From an uncultured Eisenbergiella sp. (GTDB lineage: Bacteria; Bacillota; Clostridia; Lachnospirales; Lachnospiraceae): DNA of 64,000 nucleotides. Positions 37,741 to 56,300 of the stretch are shown piece after piece. The notes under the pieces are model-generated. The model saw only the letters and a list, made by a program, of their open reading frames with translations, did no database searches and was not told the DNA's origin. Position 1 is the stretch's first letter. Every line of letters begins with the position of its first letter. A program made the translations under genes and the position numbers. The stretch lies in contig CANQFM010000005.1 in assembly GCA_947598825.1 (NCBI GenBank), positions 1 to 64,000 on the forward strand. Direction: 5' to 3'.

Positions 37741-37783
37741 TCCTTTAGTTTTGTTTTACGTCAGGAAGGTCTCGAACTGACGG
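37741..37783 (-). promoter_or_regulatory. preQ1-I-like riboswitch of queT
   Basis: On the minus strand the leader reads CGTCAG-TTCGAGACCTTC-CTGACG followed by an A-rich tail TAAAACAAAACTA and then AAGGAG. A short stem with a C-rich loop and an A-rich tail that folds back to form a pseudoknot is the preQ1-I aptamer layout. The tail runs into the ribosome binding site, so ligand should block translation. A separate hairpin AGCCCGC/GCGGGCT (37799-37818) lies just upstream. Confidence 0.75.
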
Positions 37784-37830
37784 ATTGATTTGCCGCAAAG
37801 CCCGCAGGAATGCGGGCTGCAGCGATTTGG

Positions 37831-37859
37831 AGTATAACATAACATGATGAGAAATGCAA
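37831..37859 (-). promoter_or_regulatory. Promoter of queT
   Basis: Minus strand TTGCAT (37854-37859), 17-bp spacer, TATACT (37831-37836). It places the riboswitch entirely within the transcript leader. Confidence 0.75.
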
Positions 37860-38109
37860 GCAAAGTACCAGAAAAGTACCACGTTGGAAATCCCGATGCC
37901 CGATGCGTGACGTCATGTATTTTCTGAAAAGTAAAAAAATCCATTTTCTTTTGAGGCATGGACATATATACGTCCATGCCTTTTGTTATGCTGATACTGA
38001 AGATGGACAGCAGGACGGATGATGTCCGAAAAGACTGTCGGGATAAAAGAGAAAAGATGAAAACGTCCGCCACAGGACAGTAAAAACAGTGGAGAAAGGA
38101 TGGAAACTT

Positions 38110-39036
38110 ATGTTTTTATTTAACAACCTTCTCAGTGGGAGCGGTTTAACGCCGGGGTTCAGGAATATGGCGTCCGGCATCGGGCTCGCCTTTCATACGG
38201 GAAAAGCGGACCTGGGAAATGCGATCGGGCAGGCGCTGGACAATGCGGCCAGCAAGGCGGAGATCGATTATTTCAACCGGAAATTTGACAGTTTGAGCGA
38301 GGAAGAGAAGGAAGAACTGGCAAACGATGAGGAGAAGTTTGAACAGTTCGTGAGAGACACCAATGAAGAGTTGGGGATATATGAGGATGAGGACGAAGAT
38401 GAGGACGAGGAGGACGACGAAGACGAAGAGGATGAGGGTGAGGACGACGAAGACGATGAAGATGGAGAGGATGATGATGTAGAAGATGACGATGAGGACG
38501 AAGATAACGTCAGCGTTTCCCGGTCCTTCTGGAAGGTTTTCGGGAAGCCGGATGTGGAAAACGACACCACAGGTGCAGCAAAGAGCGGTGGCAGGAGCAA
38601 AGAAGAGGACGAAAAAGAACATCTCACGGATGAACGGCTGTCCAGGACGCTCCGGTATCTTGGCGGCGCGCTGGCCGGAAGGGTGCCGGGATACCTGTCG
38701 GATCTGACCGCCCTGGCTGTTTTATACGAGACCGGCCAGATCACGCTGGAACAGGTGTATGAAAATATGCCGCTGCAGGAAGGGGCGGACACCTCTGAAA
38801 TGGTCGGGATCCTGAACCTGGTCAGCATCACCCTCTGCGGGAAGCCGGTGAATAGCGCTGTCGGGCGGCCGAAGGCAAAGGCTTCTGAAAAGCTGAACAG
38901 CGCCGTTCTGTCCGTGCTGGAGTGTATGCGCGGGTATCAGAAGATTCTGACGAAAGATTCCGCCGGAAAGATGGACAGGATGATGGAGAACCTGCAAAAA
39001 CAGAAGCCTTCGGAGGAAAAGGAGAGGAAATCATGA
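38110..39036 (+). CDS. Protein with a long polyacidic tract, first gene of the AAA+/VWA operon
   Basis: The 308-aa protein begins MFLFNNLLSGSGLTPGFRNM. Residues about 93-134 are almost only Asp and Glu (EDEDEDEDEEDDEDEEDEGE and onward). The flanking parts are helical and without a named domain; the C-terminal half (LSRTLRYLGGALAGRVPGYL onward) looks globular. The DNA of the tract is a run of GAN/GAG triplets likely to vary in length. It overlaps the AAA+ ATPase gene by 4 bp, so it is a probable partner or substrate of that ATPase. ATG 38110 (GGATGG upstream) is preferred to the track start. No function is proposed. Confidence 0.8.
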   Translation: MFLFNNLLSGSGLTPGFRNMASGIGLAFHTGKADLGNAIGQALDNAASKAEIDYFNRKFDSLSEEEKEELANDEEKFEQFVRDTNEELGIYEDEDEDEDEEDDEDEEDEGEDDEDDEDGEDDDVEDDDEDEDNVSVSRSFWKVFGKPDVENDTTGAAKSGGRSKEEDEKEHLTDERLSRTLRYLGGALAGRVPGYLSDLTALAVLYETGQITLEQVYENMPLQEGADTSEMVGILNLVSITLCGKPVNSAVGRPKAKASEKLNSAVLSVLECMRGYQKILTKDSAGKMDRMMENLQKQKPSEEKERKS

Positions 39037-40103
39037 ATCTGCCGATCAGTGTCGATCAGGAAGGATTGATGAATGTACTGTTGAATATCGCGCCGATCCG
39101 TCCCGTCTTTATCTGGGGCGCGCCGGGCATCGGAAAGTCTGCGTTGGTGGAAAAGTTCGCGGACAGCGTGGGGCTGCCCTTCGTTTCGCTGTTGGGCAGC
39201 CAGCTTGCCCCGGAGGATATCATCGGCGTCCCCCGGATCGACGGGGATACCAGCGTGTTCCTGCCCCCGCGGACGATCGCCAGGAAGGAGCCCTACTGCC
39301 TGTTCCTGGATGAACTCAACGCCTGCGCGCAGGATGTACAGAAAGCGTTTTATTCCCTCATCCATGACAGGCGGGTCGGGGAATACCGCCTGCCGGAGGG
39401 CAGCGTGGTCATCGGCGCGGGGAACCGGTCGCAGGACAGCGCCATTGTAAAGACCATGTCCTCCGCCCTGGTGAACCGGATGTTCCATGTCCAGTTAAAA
39501 CCGGACGCAAGCCAGTGGCTGGCCTGGGGTTATGAGAACGGGTTGCATCCCTGGGTGCTGGAGTATATCACCCAGCGGCCCGACCATCTTTTTATGGAGC
39601 CGCCCAAAACGGAAGAACCCTATTCTACGCCTCGGTCCTGGCACCTGCTGAGCGACGCCCTGAAGGAATGGGGGCCCGGCATCCGGGAGGAAGAGCTGCG
39701 GATGCTGGCCTATGGCTGCCTGTCTTCCTCTCACGCGGGGATGTTCGTGGCCTATACCAAACAGGCGGGAAACAAGTTCTTGCTGGCGCAGATCATAGAC
39801 GGGACGCAGAAATGGCCGTCGAAGCCGGAGGAGCGGGACGTGCTGTACTTCCTCGCCCAGTCCTTCCGGGCCAGGCTGTGGCATGACTTGCCGCGGAACA
39901 GGCAGAAGCTGAACCGGGAAGCAGGGATGCTGGCGCACCGTGGGAAGGCATTGCTGAAGGAGCTGGCGGAGATCAACATGGAGTTTGCGCAGATGGTGGT
40001 GACGCCGGGGACGGACGGGGAGGAGGAAGGAAAGTGCCTGCCGGATTGGTTCTTGATGGAAGTCATTCGGGATATCCCCAGACTGATGACCAAAGCAGGA
40101 TAA
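39033..40103 (+). CDS. MoxR-like AAA+ ATPase (dynein-related AAA_5 type)
   Basis: The 356-aa ATPase has the P-loop GAPGIGKS (about 29-36), Walker B PYCLFLDELNA, and sensor GAGNRSQDSAIVKTM followed by the arginine finger region ALVNRM. This is the type normally paired with VWA-domain proteins, one of which is encoded next. Together they probably form a chaperone or remodelling pair. The ORF-track start is inside the previous gene; ATG 39033 has AAAAGGAGAGG upstream and overlaps the previous stop. Confidence 0.9.
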   Translation: MNLPISVDQEGLMNVLLNIAPIRPVFIWGAPGIGKSALVEKFADSVGLPFVSLLGSQLAPEDIIGVPRIDGDTSVFLPPRTIARKEPYCLFLDELNACAQDVQKAFYSLIHDRRVGEYRLPEGSVVIGAGNRSQDSAIVKTMSSALVNRMFHVQLKPDASQWLAWGYENGLHPWVLEYITQRPDHLFMEPPKTEEPYSTPRSWHLLSDALKEWGPGIREEELRMLAYGCLSSSHAGMFVAYTKQAGNKFLLAQIIDGTQKWPSKPEERDVLYFLAQSFRARLWHDLPRNRQKLNREAGMLAHRGKALLKELAEINMEFAQMVVTPGTDGEEEGKCLPDWFLMEVIRDIPRLMTKAG

Positions 40104-40169
40104 AGCGACGACTGAAAAGAGGACGGGCTGGCGGGACAGCAGAAAAGCCCAAGGAACGGGAGGTGTATC

Positions 40170-42023
40170 TTGGGGAAGCAAAAGAACGGGAAAAAACGAG
40201 ATCCGGCGCTGGAAGCTTTGGAGCAGGGGATCGAACGGCTGGAAAGCCACTGGCTGTACCGGTACAGCGGCTCCAGCATCCGGCTTTGCGGGAAGAGGGA
40301 ACTGGGAGAGAGGGCGTCAGTATTGGAGAGCGGCTTGATCTGCGTGAACCGGGACAGGATGCTGCCGCCGGAAGAATGGGCGTACATCCTGGCCCACCAG
40401 CGCCTGCACCTGACCTTTGAACACGACCGTTTCTATGCGCGGATGGCGGAGGAGGGGAAGGCCTTTCGGGAGGAACTGAAACCGTACCTCTGGAACCTGG
40501 CCTGCCGGATGTATAACGCGAAGTTTCTGGCGGAAATCCGGTTCGGTGGAGAACTGGCAGAGCTTCCCTCCTATATGGAGGAGATCGGGGACGAGGAAGA
40601 GCTTTACCTGCTTCTGGCGTCCCGGGAATTGACGGATGAGGAAAGGCGTCTGGCGGCCATATTTGACGAATACTGTTTTTACCGGCTCCCTGCGGAAGCC
40701 CTGCAGGTTTTTGGCAGGAAGGAACTGGAGGAAGAGGCGAAGGCAGGACGTTCCACGCAGCACCGAGGAGCGGAATTTACGAAATGGCTTGCCAGAAAGG
40801 CGGTATATATCCTTGCCGGAGAGGAAGAACCCCGCTATTCCTTTAACAGGGAAGGGCAGACGCGGGAGGCAGTACAGTGGTTCCTCTCCCGTTATCCGCT
40901 GCTGGGCAGCCTGGCGGCGGGATTTAAGGTGGTAGAGGATTTTAAGGCCTGCCGGGAGAGGGAGATCCAGATAGCGGCCGTTGACGTGACCCGGGCTGTG
41001 ATCTGGGTCAACCCGGCTGCAGGGCTGAGCGCGGAAGAATTGCGCTTCGTGCTGGCCCACGAATTTCTGCACGCAGGGCTTTTGCACCATGAGCGAAGGC
41101 AAGGGAGGGACGCTTTTCTCTGGAACGTTGCCTGCGACTTTGTGATCAACGGATGGCTGAAGGAGATGGGTGTAGGGGATATGCCGGATGGCTGCCTGTA
41201 TGAAGAATCCTTTGTGAACCTGTCGGCGGAGAGCATCTATGACATCCTGGCGGAGGACCTGCGCCGCGCCATGAAATACCAGACCTTCCGGGGATATGGT
41301 AAGGGGGATATCTGTGTAGGAGACGGTGTCGGGGGAACCGGGTTGAAAGACGGACTGGACAGAGATACCTTTTACCGGGAGGCGCTGGCCCAGGGGCTGG
41401 AATACCATCAGAACACAGGAAGGGGGCTTCTGCCAGCCGGACTGATAGAGGAGATCCGGGCGCTGGGGATGCCGCCGGTGCCATGGGACGTGAAGCTGGC
41501 GGAGTGGTTCGATGTCCATTTCCCTCTGCCGGAGCAAAAGCGCAGCTATGCCAGGGCCAGCCGGAGGCAGAGCGCCACGCCGGAGATTCCCAGACCGGGA
41601 AAGACGGAGCAGTGGGGGAAGGACAGGGACAGGACCTTTGGCGTGGTGCTGGACACTTCGGGCTCTATGGACGAACGGCTTCTGGGGAAAGCGCTGGGGA
41701 GTATCGCCAGCTATGCGCAGGCAAAAGAGGTGCGCTTTGTGCGGGTGGTATTCTGCGATGCTGCCGCATATGACGCGGGATATCTGGCGCCGGAGGAGAT
41801 CGCAGGAAAAGTGGAAGTGACAGGCAGGGGCGGCACGGTGCTGCAGCCGGGGATCGACTTTCTGGAGGATGCAAAGGATTTTCCGAAGGACGGGCCGGTG
41901 CTGGTCATCACGGACGGGCTGATCGAGGACAGGCTGGTGATCCATAGGGAACATGCGTTTCTGATTCCGCGAAAGGGAAAGCTGCCGTTTAAGCCCAAAG
42001 GGGAGGTGTTTTACCTTGCGTAA
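40170..42023 (+). CDS. DUF2201-type metallopeptidase/VWA protein with duplicated peptidase domain
   Basis: The 617-aa protein has two copies of a metallopeptidase-like domain and a C-terminal VWA-like domain. Copy 2 has an intact HExxH zinc motif, His297-EFL-His301 (LAHEFLHAGLLHHERR). Copy 1 has LAHQRLHLTFEHDRF at 74-88, with the catalytic Glu replaced by Gln77, so it is probably inactive. Each copy is followed by LWN(L/V)AC. The VWA domain has the MIDAS motif DTSGS (495-499). Partnership with the AAA+ ATPase upstream is typical. The TTG start at 40170 follows GGGAGGTG. Substrates are unknown. Confidence 0.85.
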   Translation: MGKQKNGKKRDPALEALEQGIERLESHWLYRYSGSSIRLCGKRELGERASVLESGLICVNRDRMLPPEEWAYILAHQRLHLTFEHDRFYARMAEEGKAFREELKPYLWNLACRMYNAKFLAEIRFGGELAELPSYMEEIGDEEELYLLLASRELTDEERRLAAIFDEYCFYRLPAEALQVFGRKELEEEAKAGRSTQHRGAEFTKWLARKAVYILAGEEEPRYSFNREGQTREAVQWFLSRYPLLGSLAAGFKVVEDFKACREREIQIAAVDVTRAVIWVNPAAGLSAEELRFVLAHEFLHAGLLHHERRQGRDAFLWNVACDFVINGWLKEMGVGDMPDGCLYEESFVNLSAESIYDILAEDLRRAMKYQTFRGYGKGDICVGDGVGGTGLKDGLDRDTFYREALAQGLEYHQNTGRGLLPAGLIEEIRALGMPPVPWDVKLAEWFDVHFPLPEQKRSYARASRRQSATPEIPRPGKTEQWGKDRDRTFGVVLDTSGSMDERLLGKALGSIASYAQAKEVRFVRVVFCDAAAYDAGYLAPEEIAGKVEVTGRGGTVLQPGIDFLEDAKDFPKDGPVLVITDGLIEDRLVIHREHAFLIPRKGKLPFKPKGEVFYLA

Positions 42024-42119
42024 AAATATAATGATTTTTCCTGACAGAGACAAAGGCATGTCCAGGCCCTTTGCTATAATAGAAATGAGGACCCCTTAAA
42101 TGGGCGGAGGAGGATTGCA

Positions 42120-43187
42120 ATGAAGAAAAGGATTTCCGTTATGTTAATCGCCATGTTGATGTTTTCCTTTTGCGCCTGTGGAACAGATGATATAACTGAC
42201 CAGGTTGCAAATGTTGTGCAGGCTGAGGATGAGCATATTCTTGCAGTAAAGGGCGGCTCCCCCAGTGCATATCCATCGAAAAAATTTGGAGAAGCATTTG
42301 ATAATTTTTTTGGTTCACCGACATGGAAATATTTTGAGGGAACAAAGGAAGGCACGGATGAAGACGGAGACGGCGAGCCGGATACTGTGGAGGAAAATGT
42401 GGATGTCGTTGAATTCACGGGTTACTGTACTTATCAGGATGTCAGGGTAAAAGCCCTGATACAGTTCACGTTGAGTAAAGACGATGATACGTTTGAGGCG
42501 ACATATCTTTCTTTCAATGACGTCCCGCAAAATATGCTCATGCTTGCCGGACTGCTGGAAGCCGTATTTTCGGATGGGGATACAGAGGATGTTCCTGTAG
42601 AAGATGTCACTATGGAAGATATTCCTGCAGAAGATACGTCTGATAATATGTCTCAGGAAAATGAGGATCCCCTGTTAGAGGAGTTTATTGCGCTGGTCTG
42701 TTCTTATGCGGATCCGCCTGATCTGGAGAACGATGCGTTAAGGGAGTATTTTCAGGAGGGATATGACAGCTGGGCAAGCGGGGAAAGCTATAGAAACATT
42801 ATTGTCGGTTCGGACGGCCATCTGATTATCCCCGACCATACGGCTGAATATGAGGGAACCTGGTGGGATGAATACAGCCAGAGATGCTATATGGAAATAC
42901 GCTGCGATGACGGGATCAACTATTCCATTGATATAAACTGGGGAAGCAGCGCGTGGGAGAATACGCATTGGTCATTCTATGGAACTTATGATGAGGTAGA
43001 TGGCGGTATCCATTATTACGGATGCAGAATCGAAGAAGTTTATTCAGAGGGCGGCGAAGTACAGGAAACATACAGTTATACCGACGGGGAAGGCCTTATT
43101 TGGCTGGGGGATGACGGTATGCTTTATTGGGAGGATTACACCGAGCAACAGGGGGAGGACTGTGTCTTTGCGCGGTCAGAAGGCTGA
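42120..43187 (+). CDS. Putative lipoprotein
   Basis: The 355-aa protein has a lipoprotein-type signal (MKKRISVMLIAMLMFSFCAC) with a cysteine near residue 17-19. An acidic low-complexity stretch (VPVEDVTMEDIPAEDTSDNM, near 160-180) links two domains: an N-terminal one (AYPSKKFGEAFDNFFGSPTW) and a Trp/Tyr-rich C-terminal one (YEGTWWDEYSQRCYMEIRCD). I cannot name a family. An extended -10 (TGCTATAAT, 42072-42080) is the likely promoter. It may be surface-exposed. Confidence 0.75.
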   Translation: MKKRISVMLIAMLMFSFCACGTDDITDQVANVVQAEDEHILAVKGGSPSAYPSKKFGEAFDNFFGSPTWKYFEGTKEGTDEDGDGEPDTVEENVDVVEFTGYCTYQDVRVKALIQFTLSKDDDTFEATYLSFNDVPQNMLMLAGLLEAVFSDGDTEDVPVEDVTMEDIPAEDTSDNMSQENEDPLLEEFIALVCSYADPPDLENDALREYFQEGYDSWASGESYRNIIVGSDGHLIIPDHTAEYEGTWWDEYSQRCYMEIRCDDGINYSIDINWGSSAWENTHWSFYGTYDEVDGGIHYYGCRIEEVYSEGGEVQETYSYTDGEGLIWLGDDGMLYWEDYTEQQGEDCVFARSEG

Positions 43188-43251
43188 ATGATGAGAAGGA
43201 AAAAGAACAGGTTGCGCTGAAAGAGATGGCGGAAAGGAAAATAAGGAAAAG

Positions 43252-44199
43252 ATGAAAAAAGAAAAAAAGGCTGTTAAAATCTGCGGAAGGCAGAGGTTCA
43301 TTTGTATCGTTGTATCGATTATTATTTTTGGATCCACCGGCTTACATGCATCTGCAGCGGGCAACAGTAGTTTAGAGGGTTCTACGGTAGAGAGCCCTAC
43401 CGGATATACCATTGCAGAATTCCCATATCAGAATACGAAAAAGGCGGATAAGCTTTTGAAAGTATTTCAGGAAGCGAAAAAGGCAGATCCGGAGAACCTC
43501 ATAAATATCGAGGTTTCCTCAAAGGGATTATTTGATACCAGCGACCAGTATAAACAAACGCTGGGTGCCGGGGACTATTTATACTATGGGGATATGAAGG
43601 ACGGAAAACCCGATGGAAAGGGTGTTCTTCTGGAGTATGCCTCCGTACTCAACGCGACCATTCCGGTGCTTCTGGGAGAATTTAAAGATGGACAACTGGA
43701 CGGATATGTGATCCGAATATCTGCCCTGACGGTACCGGAGGTCGCCAGTGAAGGGTTTTACAGCAAGGGAGAACGGGATGGGGATTATACCGGCTACAGC
43801 GATGGGCTGATGAACAGGGAGTATCTGAATTGCTATCCTGGGCTACTGGATGCATTTGAGGAGTATTTGCGGGGAGAACTGTATAAAGCCGGGTATGACG
43901 AGATCGTATGGGATGTTCCATTAATGCCTGTCTATGTCCAGGAACAGGGTACATATAACAAGGGTAAGATAACGGGAAAATGGACGGGGTATTTTTATGA
44001 CGGAACGGTTGCGGCAGAAATAAAAATGGATCGCAATGGGAAAACCGGAAAAGGGAAAATATATTATTCAAACGGGCAGGTCAAATATGATGGGGAGCTT
44101 CGTAACATGCAGTACGATGGAAAAGGAGCTTTATACAGAGAAGACGGCAGCCTGGAATACAAAGGAAAATTTAAAAACGGTCAGATCGATACGGATTGA
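43252..44199 (+). CDS. Secreted MORN-repeat-like protein
   Basis: The 315-aa protein has an N-terminal signal (FICIVVSIIIFGSTGLHASA) and repeated short GxYxxGxxxG-like units (YYGDMKDGKPDGKGVLLEY; GTYNKGKITGKWTGYFYDGT; KYDGELRNMQYDGKGALY; EYKGKFKNGQID), typical of MORN/YwqK-type repeats. Such repeats are structural and often mediate binding to surfaces or lipids. It follows the lipoprotein by 64 bp and precedes the 659-aa protein by 53 bp in the same direction. Confidence 0.8.
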   Translation: MKKEKKAVKICGRQRFICIVVSIIIFGSTGLHASAAGNSSLEGSTVESPTGYTIAEFPYQNTKKADKLLKVFQEAKKADPENLINIEVSSKGLFDTSDQYKQTLGAGDYLYYGDMKDGKPDGKGVLLEYASVLNATIPVLLGEFKDGQLDGYVIRISALTVPEVASEGFYSKGERDGDYTGYSDGLMNREYLNCYPGLLDAFEEYLRGELYKAGYDEIVWDVPLMPVYVQEQGTYNKGKITGKWTGYFYDGTVAAEIKMDRNGKTGKGKIYYSNGQVKYDGELRNMQYDGKGALYREDGSLEYKGKFKNGQIDTD

Positions 44200-44252
44200 G
44201 GGAACGTATACAGCCCGCCCGTATTCTTTGCAGGCCGCATAGGAGGTAACTT

Positions 44253-46232
44253 ATGTCAGCAAAAAAAGGGTCTTCTCTATTGAACGGTTGTGTTTTCTTT
44301 GGAGAGAAAATCGATTTTGACGCTGCGGAAATCAGATATATGGATCTGTTCAATATGGTCCCTGATGCAATACACAGCGTTGAAAAGCCTTTTTATGAAT
44401 GGTATGAAAAGCGCGGGGATATTGAAGAGGTCTTGAACCAATACAAGGCTTTCGCTCAAAAGACGCTCTCTTCCTACGCGATTCGTGCGCTGTTTCCGCA
44501 ACTGTCGGAAAATGAAATCTATGATATCAGCGAAAATACCTATGTCAGGGAATGCGTTGCGCTTTCGGATTCCGATCAGGCGTTCAGGGACGTCCGTAAG
44601 ACCTACCAGCAAATCCTGCAAAAACAGCAGGAGGCTGAGGAATACAGGGAAATACGAAAGGATAGCCGCGGTCGCTGGCAAGGCGGAGGCTTTGGCCTGG
44701 GCGGAGCGATCAAAGGGGCAACGCAGGCAGCGGCGATGAACGCGGTATCAGGACTGGGACACAGTCTGGTAAATGCGGTTGGGAATGCCGGTTCCTCAAT
44801 GGCGGCCAGCAGTTCTAAAAGGGAACTGTATAAACGGGCAAAGGACAGCCTTTTGATCGGTATCCAGAGAGATATGGCGAACCTCTTTGTCAGCCATATA
44901 GAATTGCTCAATCAGTATGAGGAAGAACTGGTCACGAATTCCTTTGATGAGGATAAAAGCAACGCCTTATTTGAAAATGCAAAAAAGCTGCCGGATAAAC
45001 GCGAACCCCTGTTGCAGCAGGCGTTTCTGGAGTGCCCATGGAATGAGCCGCTGATCAAATATTTATTTGCGAATTGTCCGGAAGGCCGTTCGGCGGCCGT
45101 AACGGCCGCTCAGGTTTTTTCCATTGATCTGCGGGATCAGATGGAGACGCTTTTGTCGTATGAATATACGGAAAAGGATAAGTCCTCTGAAGCGGCGGAA
45201 CGAAAGGCGCAGAAACGGATTCTTTCGCTGATGAAAAAATACGGGATCACGGAGAGTAAAACCCTGGACGCGTTGGAGAAAAATCTCTTAAACAGAGTCT
45301 GCGAGGGATACAAAGCTGCAGACGAATCCACCTGTGAAGCCATGAAAACTGCGGTGGCGACCTATGATGTCCAGGAGAAACTCAAGCCCGATTTTCTGTC
45401 GGCGTTGTCAACGAGGATAGAAGAGATCTGGAATACAGAGCTTGCACAGATCTGTCAGGGATATGAAACGGCTGATGAAAAGACCTGCGAGGAGATGATA
45501 GACGCCATAAACGCGCATCATGCTGGGGACAATTTTAAAACGCCGTTTCTTGAGAATCTCCATGAGCGGATAAAAAAAATCTGGGATGAGGAACTTGCGC
45601 GGATCTGTCAGGGATATGAAACGGCTGATGAAAAGACATGCAACGAGATGATAAATGCAGTAAACGCCCATCATGCCACGGAAGAACATAAGGCAGCGTT
45701 CCTAAAGAAAATACAGGCCCGGATAGAAACTATCTGGTCCGCAGAGGACGGAGAAATATTTGATAATCTGTATCTGCAGACGGATATCACGGATCCGAAG
45801 GCTGTTGCGGAGGCCATTGCGTACATAGAGGAAAAATCCCGGACGGCCTCGTCGGAAAAATATCTGAAAGCTTTGAAAAAATGCTCGCCGGAAGAGATCA
45901 AACGGGCCCGCCAGTACAAATATAGCATACGGCCAAAGCTGTATCCTATTTTAGCGGTGCTATGCGGCGGAAGTTTTATTTTTGGAGCGGCGCTTGCCGT
46001 TATCGGGGTCCCGCTGGCGATCCTGTTTTTGTGGTTGCGGTTCAGGATAAAGGCGGCATGGAATGACCTGACCCTAAACGGTTCCGTGATCCCTCTTGCC
46101 CTTTCCGAAAACATCCCGCGAAGTCCGCAAAAGGCAATAGAAGCAAAGGACGATCATGATGGCGATCGGCCATCCAGTTATTATGAACGGTATAGAGGCG
46201 GTAAGGACAGGAAAACGCCCGGAAAGAAATAA
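44253..46232 (+). CDS. 659-aa protein with three 51-aa repeats and C-terminal membrane helices
   Basis: The N-terminal domain (1-140) is helical and of unknown type. A Gly/Ala-rich hydrophobic stretch (GGGFGLGGAIKGATQAAAMN to GSSMAASS, about 147-190) could insert in a membrane. Three tandem 51-aa repeats follow (about 346-498; unit ICQGYETADEKTCEEMIDAI), and a membrane-helix pair (LYPILAVLCGGSFIFGAALAVIGVPLAILFLW) sits near the C-terminus. The start has AGGAGG upstream. I cannot name a family. The Gly/Ala hairpin recalls that of the protein at 49061. Confidence 0.75.
   Translation: MSAKKGSSLLNGCVFFGEKIDFDAAEIRYMDLFNMVPDAIHSVEKPFYEWYEKRGDIEEVLNQYKAFAQKTLSSYAIRALFPQLSENEIYDISENTYVRECVALSDSDQAFRDVRKTYQQILQKQQEAEEYREIRKDSRGRWQGGGFGLGGAIKGATQAAAMNAVSGLGHSLVNAVGNAGSSMAASSSKRELYKRAKDSLLIGIQRDMANLFVSHIELLNQYEEELVTNSFDEDKSNALFENAKKLPDKREPLLQQAFLECPWNEPLIKYLFANCPEGRSAAVTAAQVFSIDLRDQMETLLSYEYTEKDKSSEAAERKAQKRILSLMKKYGITESKTLDALEKNLLNRVCEGYKAADESTCEAMKTAVATYDVQEKLKPDFLSALSTRIEEIWNTELAQICQGYETADEKTCEEMIDAINAHHAGDNFKTPFLENLHERIKKIWDEELARICQGYETADEKTCNEMINAVNAHHATEEHKAAFLKKIQARIETIWSAEDGEIFDNLYLQTDITDPKAVAEAIAYIEEKSRTASSEKYLKALKKCSPEEIKRARQYKYSIRPKLYPILAVLCGGSFIFGAALAVIGVPLAILFLWLRFRIKAAWNDLTLNGSVIPLALSENIPRSPQKAIEAKDDHDGDRPSSYYERYRGGKDRKTPGKK
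45288..45746 (+). repeat. Three tandem 153-bp coding repeats
   Basis: Units start at about 45288, 45441 and 45594. Units 2 and 3 are very similar in DNA (both contain ATCTGTCAGGGATATGAAAC), showing recent duplication; unit 1 is more diverged. Each encodes 51 residues with two conserved cysteines. Confidence 0.8.
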
Positions 46233-46237
46233 CGGGA

Positions 46238-46268
46238 TAAAACAAGGGCTGCTTCAAACGGCAGCCCT
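46238..46268 (-). terminator. Terminator of the XRE regulator gene
   Basis: AGGGCTGC (46245-46252) and GCAGCCCT (46261-46268) form a stem; on the minus strand it is followed by TTGTTTT. Confidence 0.65.
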
Positions 46269-46311
46269 GATCGCCGCAAAGAATATAAAAGCAAAAAGAA
46301 GTCCTGCCCCG

Positions 46312-46545
46312 TCATTGGGGAAAAGTGAGCAGACGGTTTACCGGAACGCCGAGGGCGTCTGCAATATCCATCAGCGTTTCCAGAGAGATCGAGGTCGGCA
46401 TGTTGGGCGCTTCTATATTGCTCATATGCGTCCGACTGATCCCCACGGCCTCCGCCAGCTGCATCTGACTGATGCCGTTCAGTTTTCTGTAATATGCGAT
46501 ATTCAGGCCTAGTTTCTTATACTCTTGGTCATGTCTGGAATTCAC
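46312..46545 (-). CDS. XRE-family HTH transcriptional regulator, 77 aa
   Basis: The track gives a 211-aa ORF, but the real gene starts at the GTG at 46545, behind GAGGTGA. The product is an almost bare Cro/C1-type helix-turn-helix: LGLNIAYYRKLNGISQMQLAEAVGISRTHMSNIEA followed by a short dimerisation tail. The recognition helix region ISRTHMSNIE is complete. It is encoded opposite to the large accessory region on its right and could regulate it or itself. Its stop lies 80 bp from the stop of the convergent 659-aa gene. Confidence 0.87.
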   Translation of the reverse strand: MNSRHDQEYKKLGLNIAYYRKLNGISQMQLAEAVGISRTHMSNIEAPNMPTSISLETLMDIADALGVPVNRLLTFPQ

Positions 46546-46903
46546 AAATATCACCTCATGGTTAGTGTATCCGAATGACAGAAATTCATAAACAATATAA
46601 AAATATGCAAAAACAATACATATATTTGCAATATGAAAAGGAATATGATAAGATAAAAAAAGAGTTATTTGCGGTATTTTTATGTGGAAAAAAAGGAATG
46701 ATTGCGGTAAATTCATATCTAGTGTATAATTTATATATGTAAAGACGGAAGGAGGAAGTGAAAGCAGATCATTTGTAGAGAAGCGCTTTTGATTCCTCTT
46801 CTTTTTTTGTGAATATAGACAAAAACTGTCCATGCCGTTTGATAAAATGGCGTTATAAAATATAACCTGTTTCAGACAGGGAGCAGACAGAAAGGGACAG
46901 CCT
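46546..46903. other. Intergenic regulatory region between XRE and WYL genes
   Basis: No gene is seen in these 358 bp. The left part is A+T-rich with related motifs TATGCAAA and TTTGCAATA (46605-46640) that could be operators for the XRE regulator. A T run follows AGAAGCGCTTTTGATTCCTCTTC near 46780-46807. On the right, TTGATA and TATAAC with 16-bp spacing are a possible WYL promoter, followed by the palindrome CCTGT-TTCAG-ACAGG at 46866-46880. Confidence 0.4.
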
Positions 46904-47869
46904 ATGGACAGAGAAGAAAGTACAAAAATTAACAGGATTTTATCCATTTACGCGGAACTTACAGAGGGGCGCGTGGTCAACAAGGCAGAGATGGCCCAGC
47001 GGTTTGGCGTCAATGCCAGGAGCATCCAGCGGGATGTGGAGAGCATTCGGCGTTTCCTGGAGGATCGGGAAACGAAAAATGGGATCCGGAATGAACTGAT
47101 CTATGATTATCGAGAAAAAGGGTACCGGTTGGAGCAGCCGCAGGAATTGATGCTGACAAACGAGGAGGTCCTGGCGGTCTGCAAGATTCTGTTGGATAGC
47201 AGGGCCTTTGTCCGGCCGGAAATGATGGCGATGTTGGACAAGCTGGTCAGTTGTTCCGTTCCGAAGAAAAACCAGAAGATGGTAAACGACCTTCTCTCCA
47301 ACGAAAAATATCACTACATAGAGCCGCATCACGGGAAACGCTTCCTGGACCGGATGTGGCTGGCCGGACAGGCGATCCGAGAAAACCGGGTCATCCAGAT
47401 CAGCTATCGGAAGATGAAGGACCATGCGCAGGTCAGCCGCAGACTGGAACCGCTGGCGATCCTGTTTTCAGAGTATTATTTCTATTTGGTTGGCTTCATA
47501 GAGGATATTGACAGGGAGGAAGCCTTTCAGAATGCGAAGGATCCGTATCCCACGATTTATCGGATCGACCGGATCGATGAACTGAAGCTGCTGCCGGAAC
47601 ACTTTAAGATCCCCTATGCGGATCGGTTTGAAGAAGGCGAGTTCCGCAAGCGGGTGCAGTTCATGTATGGCGGACGGCTGCAGAGACTTCGGTTTGAATA
47701 CACCGGCCCTTCTGTGGAGGCGGTGCTGGACCGGCTGCCGACAGCGAGGATCCTGCGGGAAGAGGACGGGAAATATCTGATCCAGGCGGAGGTGTTCGGC
47801 GAAGGCGTGGAGATGTGGCTGAGGAGCCAGGGGGAGATGGTGCGGGATGTGGTGAGGAAGGAAATATAG
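46904..47869 (+). CDS. WYL-domain transcriptional regulator
   Basis: The 321-aa protein has an N-terminal winged HTH (NRILSIYAELTEGRVVNKAE, then FGVNARSIQRDVESIRRFLE) and a WYL domain (RRLEPLAILFSEYYFYLVGF) with a C-terminal WCX-like extension. WYL proteins bind small ligands or nucleic acids and often regulate phage-defence or conflict loci (BrxR/CapW type). It stands immediately upstream of, and in the same direction as, the A+T-rich island, 38 bp before its first gene, although its own composition is like the host chromosome. The ATG has AAAGGGAC upstream. Confidence 0.9.
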   Translation: MDREESTKINRILSIYAELTEGRVVNKAEMAQRFGVNARSIQRDVESIRRFLEDRETKNGIRNELIYDYREKGYRLEQPQELMLTNEEVLAVCKILLDSRAFVRPEMMAMLDKLVSCSVPKKNQKMVNDLLSNEKYHYIEPHHGKRFLDRMWLAGQAIRENRVIQISYRKMKDHAQVSRRLEPLAILFSEYYFYLVGFIEDIDREEAFQNAKDPYPTIYRIDRIDELKLLPEHFKIPYADRFEEGEFRKRVQFMYGGRLQRLRFEYTGPSVEAVLDRLPTARILREEDGKYLIQAEVFGEGVEMWLRSQGEMVRDVVRKEI

Positions 47870-47907
47870 TGATATAAAAAAATTAAAAAGAAAAGGAGAA
47901 TCGAGAG

Positions 47908-48642
47908 ATGAAGAATGTTTTTACGAATGAAAAAGTAACGATTGAGGAGCAGGAGATTTTGCTGTCAGAATCACTGAAGTTCACAGGATGTGAGGTGTTA
48001 TTTAAAAATTGCACTTTTAATGCGGGTGGAGAGGTTCTTTCCATTTTCCTGAATTCATGCTCGCGGGTGTTGGTATCGGGCTGTACGTTTTTGGATTTTA
48101 GTGCTCCCGTGTTTGTGGAAAGGGAAAACGGTCCCATGGTAATCTGGGACTCCATATTTAAGAATTGTATGGCCACAAATATAAAGTTGAAGGGAGCGGA
48201 AACTTATTATGGCGGTGTGATCCGTACGGAAAAGATAAAAGAAAATGCAACTAAACTGATTATGGATACTGCGTTTATTCAATGCGGATATCCCTCATCC
48301 AAAGACGGCATTATCGCCAATGGATATTGTGAAGTATATAATTGTAAATATGATTATTACGGGAAAGGGATAAAGACGGCTCCGGATGTTAAGAAAACTT
48401 ACTTTGATAAAAAAAATTCGTTTTCTTTTGTGACCATACCTCTTGAGACCATGTCTACTTTAACAAAGTCTCTTGGTACTCCATATCTGACTTTATTCCG
48501 ATATGAGACAAAGGGCAGAGGGAATGAAGTCATAAGCAAGCGAGAGGGGACAAAAGTGAGTTTTGGTACGGTGAGTTTTGGTACGAGTACGAACGAAAGG
48601 GCATGGCCTTTTGGATACAACAATAAAGAATCAGGAGAATAA
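47908..48642 (+). CDS. Beta-helix-like repeat protein
   Basis: The 244-aa protein is built of short repeats with alternating hydrophobic residues and Cys/Asn turns (VLFKNCTFNAGGEVLSIFLN; VLVSGCTFLDFSAPVFVE; MVIWDSIFKNCMATN), the pattern of right-handed parallel beta-helix folds. There is no signal peptide, so it is probably cytoplasmic. It is the first gene of the A+T-rich island. A decayed copy lies at 50963-51290. Near the 3' end the DNA has a 14-bp direct repeat (GAGTTTTGGTACG). Function unknown. Confidence 0.72.
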   Translation: MKNVFTNEKVTIEEQEILLSESLKFTGCEVLFKNCTFNAGGEVLSIFLNSCSRVLVSGCTFLDFSAPVFVERENGPMVIWDSIFKNCMATNIKLKGAETYYGGVIRTEKIKENATKLIMDTAFIQCGYPSSKDGIIANGYCEVYNCKYDYYGKGIKTAPDVKKTYFDKKNSFSFVTIPLETMSTLTKSLGTPYLTLFRYETKGRGNEVISKREGTKVSFGTVSFGTSTNERAWPFGYNNKESGE

Positions 48643-48646
48643 GTTT

Positions 48647-49051
48647 ATGAATGAAAAAGAAAAGATGAGTTACCTAAAGGCTTTGATGTATATTGCACTG
48701 GCGGACGACACCATCGAAGAAGGAGAGGAACAGTATTTAAATCAGATTGGTAATTTGTATGGATTACAAGAATCGCAAATATCTGAACTTAAAAACAGTT
48801 TGCTAAATAAGGAAGAATCCTTAGAGAATATTTTGAGTGAGATTCAAAAAAGAGAAACAAAGCTTATGTTATTATACGATTTGCTTGCTATTTGCTATAC
48901 TGACAATAATTATTCTATCATGGAAAAGCAAGGCATGAGAAATATCTGCGATATTTTAAAGATTGAGAGCGGTAAATTAACTGAAATGGAGCAAGTCATG
49001 CAGGAACAGGTAGAGTTACAGGAAAAAATAAACAAAATATTGGAAAGGTAA
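48647..49051 (+). CDS. TerB-like protein
   Basis: The 134-aa helical protein resembles the TerB domain: LKALMYIALADDTIEEGEEQYLNQIGNLYG matches the pattern of an acidic metal-site loop (DD.IEEGEE) between helices, and a second similar stretch (LAICYTDNNYSIMEKQGMRNI) follows. TerB-family proteins are membrane-associated scaffolds in tellurite-resistance and phage-defence-linked systems. ATG 48647 has AGGAGAA upstream. It lies 4 bp after the beta-helix gene and 9 bp before the membrane protein, so all are one operon. Confidence 0.75.
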   Translation: MNEKEKMSYLKALMYIALADDTIEEGEEQYLNQIGNLYGLQESQISELKNSLLNKEESLENILSEIQKRETKLMLLYDLLAICYTDNNYSIMEKQGMRNICDILKIESGKLTEMEQVMQEQVELQEKINKILER

Positions 49052-49060
49052 GGTAAGAAT

Positions 49061-49564
49061 ATGAAGTTCGGTAAAGTGGCTTGTTGTCTCTGTGCGGGCG
49101 CACTTTGTGTTGCTACTGGGGGGCTGGCGGCTCCAGCCATTGGCGCAGTGGTTGGCTCATCTGTTTTGGGTTTGTCAGGAGCTGCAGCAACTTCTGCCGG
49201 ATTGGCAGCATTGGGAGGCGGTTCCCTGGCTGTCGGTGGACTTGGAATGGCAGGAGGAACCGCATTGATCCAGGCGGTGGCTGGTGGAGTTGGATTGGTT
49301 AGTGCCGGAATTGTTTCAAATGCCGCTGAGGGGGCAAAATCAAAGAAGCAAAATAAAGAATTGAGGGAAGAATTACGGCAAGCCAATATCGATAATGCAA
49401 CAAAGCAGCGAGTTATTACCCAACTCAATTCCCAAATTGAGACCTTGAAAGAGGCACTAAAGGAGGAAAAAGGAAGAAGCAGGAAAAATCAAGAAAAAAT
49501 AAAATTGATGGAAGAACAGCTCAATGATTTGGAAAAGACGCTCCAGACTGCTTATGAGGCATGA
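49061..49564 (+). CDS. Gly/Ala-rich hydrophobic protein with C-terminal coiled coil
   Basis: Residues about 8-90 are a long Gly/Ala/Ser/Val-rich hydrophobic region (GGLAAPAIGAVVGSSVLGLS to GGVGLVSAGIVSNAAEG) able to form glycine-zipper membrane hairpins. Residues 95-165 are a charged coiled coil (NKELREELRQANIDNATKQR onward). Proteins of this build often insert in or tether to membranes. It lies 9 bp after the TerB-like gene. I cannot name a family; a membrane-perturbing or scaffold role is possible. Confidence 0.75.
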   Translation: MKFGKVACCLCAGALCVATGGLAAPAIGAVVGSSVLGLSGAAATSAGLAALGGGSLAVGGLGMAGGTALIQAVAGGVGLVSAGIVSNAAEGAKSKKQNKELREELRQANIDNATKQRVITQLNSQIETLKEALKEEKGRSRKNQEKIKLMEEQLNDLEKTLQTAYEA

Positions 49565-49575
49565 GGGACCATCTG

Positions 49576-50916
49576 ATGGATAAAGATAGTATAATTCTTA
49601 AGTATGAGCAGGAAGAGGTAAAAAGTGTTCAGAATGCCATACGGGAATTAAACAAGCAAAACAGCAAGCAAACAGAACAGTTAGACAATGTGCAGGAAAG
49701 AATAAATAAGCTATATGCTCTTGCAGGAAAACAACCTTTAGAATCCAAAAGTACGACAGTTGCTTTACCTGAGGATGAACCTTCAAAAGAGATTTTGAAC
49801 CCTATATGCAGTTATGATGATCTTTATATTAAAGCAAGGGCCTCATTGATTGGCAGAGGCCTCGATGTTGATAATTTAGACTATCATGACTTGGTTTCCA
49901 AAAATGAGCTTAGCGAAATTGAGAAGGAATTAAATCGACCATTATCCCAAAGGGAAAAATGGAAAAAGGCAGATTTTGTTGCTGTTTTTATCGCTGCATC
50001 CGTAGGAAGTTTGGCGGATATAGCCTTAGGGAACAGAAACAGTTCCATCACGGGAGCAAATACAGATTTCTCAAAATGGCTCAATGAATTTCATAAACAT
50101 GATGGCGGTGGGCCAATTGATTATCAGGGAAAGGGATTCGGAGGAGGTTATCATAGGGGGTTATCCAGAGGACATGATATACTTAGATTTGTAGAAGCCA
50201 TAATGATGTTCAAGAATGGTGAGTTTATTGGGGTGCGACATGAATATGGTAAGGCAATTAAAGTTGTTTCAAAAGTTAATCAATATGGAACCCCCTATGA
50301 ACAGTTGTCTGTAATTGAAGCAATTGTTAAATATGCTAGACATATGTTTGCGGATCTGTTTTCGACCTGTAGCCTTCCCTTTCCAGGAAGTTCCTTTTTG
50401 GCAGAATGTGATGATAGGCAGTTGCGAAAGTTTGCAGCGGATATGTATCAGAATGGTTTTAATTGCAAAAACATTATTTTGCAGTCATTATCAACTGTCA
50501 TTATTGAAGTGATAATAAGAATTTATTATTCTATACAATCCGTAAAACGTTATAAATGTGAAGTGGAATTGGCAGAGGATTATTCAAATTTTGAAGCGTT
50601 TAAAAGATTCTTCAAACCGGCGAACAAGGAAAAACTAAGAGAAATGCTTCTGGTTGCACATGCTATAGTAACTGCTGTAAATATCGGTAAGGTTATAATA
50701 AAAAAGTCTCCTTGGGAAATTAATATTACGGAGATATTTTCTGTAGTAAAATATGGCGTGATGGTTTTGAAAAGTACAATGAGCCGCAATTCAGAATATG
50801 CAAAACTTATTAGAAACTCAAATGAGATACATGAGAGATGGGAATTGCTAGAGAGAGAGATTTGTTATAGCCTTGAAGATGCCGCGAGAGGAACAACAGA
50901 GATATTAATTATATAA
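49576..50916 (+). CDS. 446-aa protein of unknown family with GGGYHRGLSRGHD motif
   Basis: An N-terminal coiled coil (about 1-50) is followed by a mostly helical body. A clustered motif FGGGYHRGLSRGHDILRFVE (about 190-212) has His-Arg and Gly-His-Asp residues that might form a metal or phosphate site, but no known HD-domain spacing is obvious. Later parts have hydrophobic helices (QSLSTVIIEVIIRIYYS; LLVAHAIVTAVNIGKV) that could contact the membrane. ATG 49576 has GAGGG 8 nt upstream; ATG 49561, overlapping the previous stop, is the alternative. The family was not recognised. Confidence 0.78.
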   Translation: MDKDSIILKYEQEEVKSVQNAIRELNKQNSKQTEQLDNVQERINKLYALAGKQPLESKSTTVALPEDEPSKEILNPICSYDDLYIKARASLIGRGLDVDNLDYHDLVSKNELSEIEKELNRPLSQREKWKKADFVAVFIAASVGSLADIALGNRNSSITGANTDFSKWLNEFHKHDGGGPIDYQGKGFGGGYHRGLSRGHDILRFVEAIMMFKNGEFIGVRHEYGKAIKVVSKVNQYGTPYEQLSVIEAIVKYARHMFADLFSTCSLPFPGSSFLAECDDRQLRKFAADMYQNGFNCKNIILQSLSTVIIEVIIRIYYSIQSVKRYKCEVELAEDYSNFEAFKRFFKPANKEKLREMLLVAHAIVTAVNIGKVIIKKSPWEINITEIFSVVKYGVMVLKSTMSRNSEYAKLIRNSNEIHERWELLEREICYSLEDAARGTTEILII

Positions 50917-50962
50917 ATAATCAATATTGGCCCCTTTTAGCTGGATTCAATAATTTGTGATC

Positions 50963-51290
50963 CTAAAATTGCACTTTTAATGCGGGTGGAAAGGGAAAAC
51001 GGTCCCATGGTAATCTGGGACTCCATATTTAAGAATTGTATGGCCACAAATATAAAGCTGAAAGAATCAGAAACTTATTATGGCGGTGTGATCCATACGG
51101 AAAAGAAAGCGCAACTAAACTGATTCTGATAAAAATAATTTGTTTTTTCAACTACGTGCATTTCTAATTTTAAAAAGCCTATACATCATACTAAATATCT
51201 AACTTTATTCCGAGATGGGACAAAAAGCAGTGGGAATGAAGTCATAAGCAAACGAGAGGAGGCAATAGTGAAGGTTTGTTGAGATAAATT
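50963..51290 (+). pseudogene. Decayed duplicate of the beta-helix gene at 47908
   Basis: Blocks of this stretch match 47908-48642 closely: TTGCACTTTTAATGCGGGTG, then GGGAAAACGGTCCCATGGTA, then ACTTATTATGGCGGTGTGAT, and GGGAATGAAGTCATAAGCAA near the end. An 89-bp segment of the parent (48031-48119) is missing between copies of GTGGA, which shifts the frame, and other parts are deleted or diverged. No intact reading frame remains. The copy brackets the TerB module with its parent. The rest of the 50917-51354 gap holds only the dynamin gene's leader. Confidence 0.85.
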
Positions 51291-51354
51291 ATGAATTCGA
51301 TAGGAATATAGAGACGGATGAAAAGAAAAATAAAGTGGTCAAGAGGTGGACGAG

Positions 51355-52704
51355 ATGAATACGGCAATTTTATCGGTTGCGCAAATAGTTATAAGCAATC
51401 CGATTATATACGATGAAGCAGAGACTAAAAAAGAATATTATAACCGATTGAATTCTTATATTCGAGCAGGACAGTGGAATCGGCGAAAATATGAGAAATC
51501 GGAATTATCAGCATATCAGAAAATACTCGTATCCAGTGAGATGGTGAAAGGGGTTCATGATATCTCGTATTACAGATATTATATTCTTCTGGATGTGATC
51601 CACATATTGGGGTATGAGGTTAAATTGACCGATAATGATAAATTTGAATCTCTGAAAGAAAAATATTTTTCCGATTTTGGATCAAAAGACGCTGAAAGGC
51701 AGTTCGTTAACAAGTTACTCGCAGCTTTTACAGGAAACGGAGAAGAAAAGTATAGAAAGGTAAAGGCGATTGCCAAAAGCAAGGCATTAGGAGATGCCGA
51801 ACAATATATCAGACTTGTACTTAAAAACCTGATGTTTATGGAAAAGAAACCGTCGGGAATTATGATTACGGCGACAATGAGTGCAGGAAAATCGACGTTT
51901 ATTAATGCACTTACCGGAAAATATGTTTGCTTGTCTCAAAATATGGCTTGTACCAGCAAAATACACCATATCGTGAACAAGGCATTTGAAGACGGCTATT
52001 CTTATGAATACGATCATGATCTTATCATGACGGCGGGCCGGGAAGAACTATTGAATGATAACACAGAAAATAATTCGGACAAAATTGTTGTAGGGACTCA
52101 TTTTGTTGGCCCTTTGGGTGCTCAGAGAATAATAATCAGCGACTCGCCTGGAGTGAATTACAGCGGGGATAAAGAACATGAGATTATAACGGATAAGCTT
52201 ATGAAGGGCCGTAATTATCATCTTCTGATCTATATTATGAATGCAACGCAGTTGGGAACCAATGATGAGGATGTTCATCTGGGATATGTAAAGAAAACCA
52301 TTGGAAGGACACCGGTACTATTTATAATGAATAAAATCGATGCTTTCAACGTAGAAGAGGAGGATTTTGAGGCGGCGATCCAGAGGCAGACCGATTATTT
52401 GAAGAAGAAAGGATTCAAAAATCCAATCGTTTGTCCGGTCTCTGCGAGGGCAGGATATTTGGGAAAACGTTATGAGATGGGAAATTTGTCAAGGGCAGAA
52501 CAGCGAGAATTTTACAACTATATAGATAAATTCGCTCAGATGAATCTGCCTGTCTATTACGGGAAAATGTTTAGGAAAATAAAAATAGCGAATGCGGACA
52601 GTGAAGAACTGCAACTGCAAAAAATGTGCGGATTAGCGTATGTAGAGAAAATAATTATAAAACTGATGACAGGAGGACAACAAAGTGGCACAGGTTTATG
52701 TTAA
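51355..52704 (+). CDS. Dynamin-like GTPase A
   Basis: The 449-aa protein has a GTPase domain starting near residue 168: P-loop ATMSAGKSTFINALTGK (Lys179), switch II/G3 IISDSPGVNYSG, and G4 NKIDAF. About 165 N-terminal residues are helical. Bacterial dynamin-like proteins hydrolyse GTP to remodel or fuse membranes and some protect against phage. The stalk after the GTPase domain is short, so it probably works as a heteromer with the larger GTPase next to it, which shares NATQLGTND/NGTQLSTND and NKxDxFN. ATG 51355 follows AAGAGGTG. It overlaps the next gene by 20 bp. Confidence 0.85.
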   Translation: MNTAILSVAQIVISNPIIYDEAETKKEYYNRLNSYIRAGQWNRRKYEKSELSAYQKILVSSEMVKGVHDISYYRYYILLDVIHILGYEVKLTDNDKFESLKEKYFSDFGSKDAERQFVNKLLAAFTGNGEEKYRKVKAIAKSKALGDAEQYIRLVLKNLMFMEKKPSGIMITATMSAGKSTFINALTGKYVCLSQNMACTSKIHHIVNKAFEDGYSYEYDHDLIMTAGREELLNDNTENNSDKIVVGTHFVGPLGAQRIIISDSPGVNYSGDKEHEIITDKLMKGRNYHLLIYIMNATQLGTNDEDVHLGYVKKTIGRTPVLFIMNKIDAFNVEEEDFEAAIQRQTDYLKKKGFKNPIVCPVSARAGYLGKRYEMGNLSRAEQREFYNYIDKFAQMNLPVYYGKMFRKIKIANADSEELQLQKMCGLAYVEKIIIKLMTGGQQSGTGLC

Positions 52705-55234: not shown

Positions 55235-55251
55235 GGAAAGAAGGCGATAAA

Positions 55252-55890
55252 ATGCATGATGAAGTGAAGAAATGTGCTGAAAGAAATGATATAAAGGGGC
55301 TGCGGTACATATTTGTCGATGCTCTGGATGTAGATCCTACATTTGATAAATACAGAGAAGACTATGAATATTGCAAGCAGAAGACCGATATTTTTGATTC
55401 GCATCGGGAGATTTCGCCTTTGATTTCCAATAGAAGCCAATGGACGCTGCAATATTGGGAACAGCTCAAATTAGATTTGATGAAGAATTTTTCAGAAAAA
55501 AGATTTGAGCATATGATTTCAGTGGCGAGGGTGGTTTACGCTGAAAAGATATCCCGGCTGGAACAGGAACGGCAGAAGAAAGAACAGGAAGAAAGCAGAA
55601 AAAATGCAGTCGAACAAAAGAGAAGAAGTCCTGAACCAGTCGTGGATACCGTTCGGATGAAAGAAATGCAGGATCAGCGGATCGCTGAGGCACAAAAGAA
55701 GCTAGAGGAAGAGAATAAAAGAATTGAAGCGGAACAGGCTGAGCAGAGAGCAAGAATAGCGGCCGCGCAAAAGAATGATACGCGGTCAGATATACAGTAT
55801 GGGAGAAGTATGCAAAAAAAAGCGTTGGGGATTGTTCTGGTCGGGGTATTGCTGATAGCAATAATATTCATAATGGTGATACTGCATTAG
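55252..55890 (+). CDS. Tail-anchored coiled-coil protein
   Basis: The 212-aa protein has a small N-terminal domain (VKKCAERNDIKGLRYIFVDA), a long charged coiled coil (about 95-180, rich in Glu/Lys/Gln/Arg) and one C-terminal membrane helix (ALGIVLVGVLLIAIIFIMVIL) with nothing after it. This tail-anchored form would place the domain on the cytoplasmic face of the membrane. It lies 17 bp after dynamin B. It may be the membrane receptor or an effector for the dynamins; no family was recognised. Confidence 0.78.
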   Translation: MHDEVKKCAERNDIKGLRYIFVDALDVDPTFDKYREDYEYCKQKTDIFDSHREISPLISNRSQWTLQYWEQLKLDLMKNFSEKRFEHMISVARVVYAEKISRLEQERQKKEQEESRKNAVEQKRRSPEPVVDTVRMKEMQDQRIAEAQKKLEEENKRIEAEQAEQRARIAAAQKNDTRSDIQYGRSMQKKALGIVLVGVLLIAIIFIMVILH

Positions 55891-55934
55891 AACAATCCCT
55901 TGAAAAAACGATTCCGAGGCAAGAAAAAAGACTT

Positions 55935-56300
55935 TTGAAAAGCGCTGCATACGAAACGATAGTGTGGACAGACGAAATAAAGATAGAACGTTCAGTTGAC
56001 GGAAATTGGATATGGTGTACATTTTATATGAAAGAAAAAAGGGAATATCTGTATGAAAAGATACAGGACCAGAGAAGAATCGTGCAAATAGAAAATCACA
56101 GAGAAAGATGGAAATTGTGTCCAACAACCAAAACTTTCAATTATTTTGTTAAGCTGCAATTAGATGCAAACAATAAATATACCGGTTATTGTAAGGTGAT
56201 AGAAAAAAGGCTAGCAGATGTCAAGGGGATTCCTTTTCTTGGCACAAAAATTGAAGGCAATGACTGGAAGTATTACGGAAGGAGAAAAATGCAGACATGA
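55935..56300 (+). CDS. Hypothetical protein, 121 aa, coupled to the HerA-like gene
   Basis: The protein (ETIVWTDEIKIERSVDGNWI, then FVKLQLDANNKYTGYCKVIE) is soluble and beta-rich in appearance, without a known domain. The start is TTG at 55935 with only a distant GAGG, and the frame is open upstream, so the true start is uncertain. Its stop overlaps the ATG of the HerA-like gene (ATGA), which supports it being translated. Confidence 0.6.
   Translation: MKSAAYETIVWTDEIKIERSVDGNWIWCTFYMKEKREYLYEKIQDQRRIVQIENHRERWKLCPTTKTFNYFVKLQLDANNKYTGYCKVIEKRLADVKGIPFLGTKIEGNDWKYYGRRKMQT

Follow-up and report, generated by a model that had tools for sequence, protein, structure and literature searches.

A tandem metallopeptidase/VWA protein with a putative pseudo-peptidase copy, and its association with MoxR and RNA-repair genes

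Results and discussion

Gene content of the locus

The window, by which we mean the whole 64,000-nucleotide stretch of DNA that was analysed, carries on its forward strand an ORF of 617 amino acids (40170..42023) that encodes a tandem DUF2201_N metallopeptidase/VWA protein. Translation is predicted to begin at a TTG codon, which is preceded by a GGGAGG sequence resembling a ribosome binding site. The product consists of an N-terminal pseudo-metallopeptidase domain (copy 1, amino acids 8-204; 40191..40781, + strand), a second and apparently live DUF2201_N metallopeptidase domain (copy 2, amino acids 231-469; 40860..41576, + strand), and a DUF2201 VWA domain (41643..42020, + strand) whose MIDAS sequence, DTSGSM, conforms to the pattern DxSxS. 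Copy 2 matches PF13203 with E=1.8e-22 (80.7 bits against a cut-off of 23.2), and the VWA domain matches PF09967 with E=8.5e-7 (29.6 bits against 26.4) over amino acids 492-566. Copy 1 went unrecognised in the same Pfam scan of the window protein, and is supported instead by hhalign, by the PF13203 matches of its homologues, and by a structural model with its fold match. PADLOC, which we used to look for membership in known defence systems, matched the tandem protein to no family. We regard these domain assignments as firm; the mechanism proposed below is an inference.

Directly upstream lies a gene for a MoxR-type AAA+ ATPase (39033..40103, + strand; product beginning MNLPISV), the partner of the VWA protein, which matches AAA_5 with E=2.8e-12 when scored on the longer ORF 38922-40103. 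It is preceded by a gene for an acidic protein of 315 amino acids (38089..39036, + strand); the stop codon of this gene overlaps the start codon of moxR (ATGA), and the two genes therefore probably belong to one operon. This upstream gene occupies the position at which the close relatives L053 and L054 carry rtcB. Its product is an orphan that belongs to no Pfam family and has no relative in the homologous loci or plasmids, with weak matches only, in 2 of 299 genomes of the family. Since it lacks real homologues, we ruled it out as a conserved third part of the module.

The tandem gene is carried by just one of the 13 genomes of its genus. The genome of a sister species (G695) matches the window up to position 37757 and resumes at 60968, with approximately 1.2 kb in between, which places the gene on a genomic island of 23 kb (37758..60967) that the sister species lacks. 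Other genes of this island encode a WYL regulator (46904-47866), a BnzB-like protein (49561-50910), two tandem dynamin-family GTPases (51346-55231) and a HerA/DUF87 ATPase (56297-59764), and we consider this company defence-like. G+C content drops to approximately 0.38-0.43 across 48-60 kb. A second, ordinary MoxR/DUF58 cluster is located just outside the island at 29437-37070.

The two peptidase-like domains share one origin

A preliminary description of this DNA had proposed that the protein encoded at 40170-42023 contains an internal duplication, on the basis of two pairs of motifs. All four are present where they were reported: AYILAHQRLHLTFEHDRF at amino acid 71 (40380) and LWNLAC at amino acid 107 (40488) of copy 1, and RFVLAHEFLHAGLLHHER at amino acid 292 (41043) and LWNVAC at amino acid 317 (41118) of copy 2, an arrangement in which Gln77 of copy 1 corresponds to Glu298 of copy 2. 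An LWN motif does follow in both copies, but copy 1 reaches it 36 residues after the start of the first motif and copy 2 after 25, a looser agreement than the similar spacing originally suggested.

The duplication itself is well borne out. Local alignment of the two halves of the window protein gives a score of 86, whereas none of 2000 shuffles exceeds 59, and profile-profile comparison (hhalign) of the copy-1 and copy-2 families gives a probability of 99.5 with E=3e-22. Among the copy-1 domains of homologues, 82 of 86 match PF13203 at E<=1 (best 1.4e-10), although the copy 1 of the window is not one of them. When copy 1 is modelled by itself with AlphaFold (pLDDT 86, pTM 0.84), its best viral structural matches are phage DUF2201 metallopeptidase/VWA-like proteins, with a probability of 1.00, a TM-score of approximately 0.5 and E-values of 0.005-0.015. 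A fold search of the PDB with copy 1 returned nothing at E<=0.001, and its best match, the M48 peptidase BepA (E=2.7), is unusable. In a model of the full-length protein (pLDDT 85.2, pTM 0.60), both copies follow the order helix, strand, helix, strand, strand, HxxxH helix, helix, WNxAC helix; plasmid rows were left out of the alignments used for structure models. The profile, PF13203 and structural matches together exclude an unrelated fold for copy 1, the outcome that would have spoken against a duplication.

In a domain tree that includes single-copy relatives, copy 1 and copy 2 each form one clade (SH-aLRT 97 and 98, respectively), from which we conclude that the duplication occurred once and early, before the spread of the gene over phyla. 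This tree is built on few columns, and it supports the two clades rather than any deeper order. Judged from their sequences, copies 1 and 2 are the products of one old duplication.

Copy 1 lacks the general base and keeps the surrounding site

A scan of genome contigs with the single window protein yielded no matches, whereas the same scan with an alignment recovered 578 relatives. Our set of full-length homologues (n=96, including the window) draws on genomes of the family and phylum, cyanobacterial and Actinomycetota plasmids, and GTDB species genomes. Copy 2 carries the motif HEFLH (amino acids 297-301; 41058..41072, + strand) with the catalytic Glu298, followed by H306 and D323; H297, E298, H301, H306 and D323 are each invariant (96/96). 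The HExxH zinc motif is thus present in copy 2 of every homologue, and is absent from copy 1 in 95 of the 96.

In the window, the corresponding segment of copy 1 is HQRLH (amino acids 76-80; 40395..40409, + strand), a relic of the metal motif in which Gln replaces Glu. Conservation of this Gln across homologues had been put forward as a check, and it does not hold: position 77 is Cys in 64 sequences, Asn in 9, Gln in 7, Ala in 5, Leu in 5, Gly in 2, Ser in 2, Glu in 1 and Asp in 1. We therefore discarded Gln as a conserved signature of copy 1. At least 18 changes at this position are required on the tree, and only one of them is to Glu. That change belongs to L008, which has HExxH in both copies, a state that had been named in advance as contrary to the idea of a dead copy. 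Because it is a single change on a terminal branch, nested among Ser, Asn, Asp and Cys types, we take it for a late reversion rather than a refutation, and two live copies are rejected as the state of the family.

The positions of copy 1 that are equivalent to metal ligands behave very differently from position 77, being kept in 94-100% of homologues. His80, His85 (40422..40424, + strand; the counterpart of His306) and Glu142 (40593..40595, + strand; the counterpart of Glu354 of copy 2 in the profile alignment) are invariant in all 96, His76 is retained in 95 and Asp113 in 90. When the 195 columns are ranked by conservation, all five fall in the top 18 (hypergeometric p=4e-6). The third metal ligand would be a His, the Asp or the Glu. 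The exceptions include L056, where His76 is Leu, and the window itself, where the segment WNLACR (amino acids 108-113; 40491..40508, + strand) ends in Arg rather than Asp. Copy 1 of the window is also atypical in having Gln77 and in the change of GHFD to EHDR; by median identity it ranks eighth lowest of the 96, in the company of more distant lineages.

Copy 1 is, on this pattern of substitution, a pseudo-peptidase that has long lacked the catalytic residue alone while keeping the residues of the metal site. The preliminary description was accordingly right that a copy without the catalytic Glu sits beside an intact one, although 'dead' applies to the general base and not to the rest of the site. 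Its further suggestion, that such a copy may gate substrates or regulate the AAA+/VWA complex, was made without reference to the RNA-repair neighbours of the family described below. The pattern points to a site constrained for a non-catalytic use, most simply the binding of a metal or another ligand. It might instead be argued that copy 1 is a structural scaffold that serves dimerisation or the docking of MoxR, and that its conserved residues hold the fold and bind no metal. Residues with no ligand role, including W70, F119, A111 and C112, are indeed equally conserved, and both Arg113 of the window and Leu in place of His76 in L056 count in favour of a scaffold. Invariance of His80, His85 and Glu142 in a domain that is mostly less than 40% identical nevertheless exceeds the usual needs of a fold, and we find the scaffold explanation rather unlikely.

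Several single-copy relatives in DUF2201 likewise retain HxxxHxxxxH without Glu, and the base has therefore been lost repeatedly in this family. One of them is a second DUF2201/VWA paralogue of the window genome (L164; G000 contig C9, approximately 63266-63685), a single-copy protein with the motif HSLLH and no catalytic Glu. Two further variants were observed. In a homologue encoded beside MoxR on a Deinococcus plasmid (L036, 4783-7086), the zinc motif of copy 2 is gone as well (AELALH), and this protein is possibly non-catalytic as a whole. In L011 (G025 contig C6), a MoxR AAA domain is fused in frame straight to copy 2 and copy 1 is absent, which reflects either a natural deletion or a misassembly.

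Genes adjoining the tandem family

An AAA+ partner had been proposed from the window alone, and the wider family agrees: a MoxR ATPase gene lies directly 5′ of the tandem gene in 84 of the 88 loci with enough upstream sequence. The other recurrent neighbours are genes of RNA repair. A gene for the RNA ligase RtcB is found within a few kb, on either side of the MoxR/tandem pair, in 22 of 61 loci with >=2.3 kb upstream, and the tree requires a minimum of 12 gains or losses of this adjacency. PrfH is directly 5′ in at least five loci, and a kinase-phosphatase-RNA ligase (Pnkp-ligase) gene adjoins the tandem gene in L054, which is among the closest relatives of the window. Tpt1/KptA, Thg1, an ADP-ribosylglycohydrolase and a macro domain are further neighbours of the tandem gene. 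RtcB was identified at 1e-51, and identifications were also obtained for RF-1/PrfH, Tpt1/KptA, the kinase-phosphatase-ligase and Thg1. In addition, a small Cys-rich, CCCH-like protein of approximately 60 amino acids, with the pattern PCKYYxxxGxCxKGxxxxHxxYCQHCxKYxPRA, is encoded beside MoxR, about 1.2-1.4 kb 5′ of the tandem gene, in 11 loci (L056, L055, L064, L068, L074, L069, L071, L098, L106, L097 and L125); the one member scanned matched no Pfam family.

Co-occurrence was assessed in 299 genomes of the family, one per genus. RtcB is encoded in 14 of 16 genomes that have the tandem gene and in 70 of 283 others (Fisher p=5.9e-7, with phylogeny uncorrected beyond the choice of one genome per genus). 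Genomes with only single-copy DUF2201 matches have RtcB at the background frequency (3/10), so the link to RtcB does not extend to DUF2201 genes in general. RtcB was found beside no single-copy locus, as the four hits listed proved to be tandem-form loci. Both adjacency and genome co-occurrence, as read from gene content, thus link the tandem family to RtcB and other RNA-repair genes, and its relatives adjoin RNA-repair enzymes far above chance by statistics that are uncorrected for phylogeny.

These associations need not reflect a shared function. The tandem protein could be a general MoxR/VWA chaperone-peptidase whose substrate has nothing to do with RNA, brought close to RtcB by mobile defence islands in which unrelated systems cluster. 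The window locus would fit such an origin, given the BnzB-like protein, the two dynamin-family GTPases and the HerA ATPase on its island and the single occurrence among 13 genomes of the genus, and RtcB is not nearby in over half of the testable tandem loci. Clustering of unrelated systems does not readily account for a genome-wide enrichment of RtcB that is seen with the tandem form but is absent with the single-copy form, nor for the recurrence of several further RNA-repair enzymes beside the tandem gene, and we judge this explanation unlikely.

The main rival accepts the link with RtcB and assigns the complex a different task: it would mature RtcB or another metalloenzyme by metal loading or activation in the manner of NorQD, with copy 1 holding the metal and the peptidase activity of copy 2 being secondary. 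RtcB is a metal-dependent ligase that elsewhere needs the helper Archease (PMC3973293), and MoxR/VWA pairs are known to insert metal, as when NorQD puts iron into nitric oxide reductase (PMC13036017). Retention of the copy-1 ligand positions while the base position is free to vary would suit a metal carrier, as would the adjacency to and co-occurrence with RtcB. Against these points, a catalytic Glu kept in copy 2 of all 96 homologues would be superfluous for a pure metal carrier, and the tandem gene also occurs in genomes that lack RtcB. The window genome is one of these, since RtcB was found neither in the window nor anywhere else in that genome (completeness 99.6%). On balance, metal loading of RtcB seems to us improbable. 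Because RtcB is missing, a role in RNA repair as described here cannot be direct in the window genome.

A proposed mechanism

We favour, at a probability of about one half, the view that the tandem protein is a remodelling peptidase of the MoxR/VWA type, that its copy 1 serves as a recognition domain built on a non-catalytic metal site, and that it acts in responses to RNA damage. By analogy with NorQD, a MoxR hexamer would bind the VWA domain and strain or remodel it. Copy 1, metal-bound and non-catalytic, would dock a target or the end of a peptide, either holding the target for the live copy 2 or keeping it away from copy 2, which would cut once MoxR turns over ATP. Given the RNA-repair neighbours, the target would most likely be a protein on damaged RNA or on a stalled ribosome, or else RtcB itself, and the module would clear or activate the repair machinery. 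Detachment of the module from RtcB may have followed in the window genome, with copy 1 drifting (Gln77, Arg113).

A broader formulation is more tentative. The family might constitute a so far undescribed branch of the RNA-damage response, in which a MoxR AAA+/VWA peptidase, whose receptor domain is metal-bound and non-catalytic, strips or activates proteins on broken RNA or ribosomes together with RtcB (and PrfH, Tpt1, Thg1 or Pnkp-ligase), and which has spread on mobile islands over Bacillota, Cyanobacteria and Actinomycetota. If the RtcB link is functional, bacterial RNA repair, so far described in terms of ligases, end-healing enzymes and a release factor, would gain an AAA+ remodelling or proteolytic step. 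The tandem pair also offers a clean natural test of why a pseudo-enzyme is kept, as the general base alone has been lost while the rest of the site is conserved across phyla.

Comparison with known systems

Two components of this picture are known, namely MoxR encoded beside a metallopeptidase-VWA fusion (PMC7824862) and dead peptidases in MoxR-vWA conflict systems (PMC7159879). In the literature that we searched, the tandem live/pseudo form and its link to RtcB are not described; we make no claim of priority.

In group 2.2 jumbo phages and N4-like phages, a gene beside MoxR encodes a fusion of an N-terminal metallopeptidase with a vWA co-chaperone, and a role in virion assembly has been proposed for this pair (PMC7824862). 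Phage homologues of the tandem protein were found here, and the bacterial form differs in having two copies and an RNA-repair neighbourhood. The DUF2201 metallopeptidase/VWA relatives of N4-like phages (for example NC_070874.1, and phrog_1314) carry the annotation 'HNH endonuclease', which is probably wrong. An unverified 'Bacteriophage sp.' record, MT835968.1 (L035), gave a 49% match and is nearly identical to the bacterial locus L006 over the tandem gene and the gene downstream. On account of this near-identity the record is probably mislabelled bacterial chromosomal DNA, and a phage origin through it was rejected.

In the ternary conflict systems that contain MoxR-vWA (VMAP and others), the peptidase domains are often dead (PMC7159879). 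The MoxR-vWA core is common to these systems and the tandem locus, which differs in fusing the peptidase pair to the VWA protein itself. At the window locus we recognised neither VMAP nor any other third component, and the upstream gene there is the orphan noted above. RtcB-PrfH RNA-repair systems overlap with the module in that PrfH and RtcB adjoin it in several loci, and the accounts of these systems that we examined do not give a MoxR/VWA peptidase as an accessory (PMC6514570). Minigluzincins, which consist of one small domain, are represented by MJ1213; the profiles of both copies match it over a short stretch only, around HExxH.

NorD is not known to contain HExxH peptidase domains. NorQ/NorD-type pairs otherwise share with the tandem module a MoxR hexamer with a VWA partner, and the full tandem model weakly matches NorD (9qhd); the target of NorD is a metalloenzyme. 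The VWA partner of NorQD plugs the MoxR ring, and a twisted linker remodels the target (PMC9976466, PMC13036017). Closest in domain content are the single-copy DUF2201 proteins that occur with MoxR, which have the same metallopeptidase and VWA domains (PF13203 and PF09967) and include relatives of approximately 400 amino acids in Bacillota genomes. These proteins have one peptidase domain, to which the tandem form adds an N-terminal copy without the base, and the association with RtcB is confined to the tandem form.
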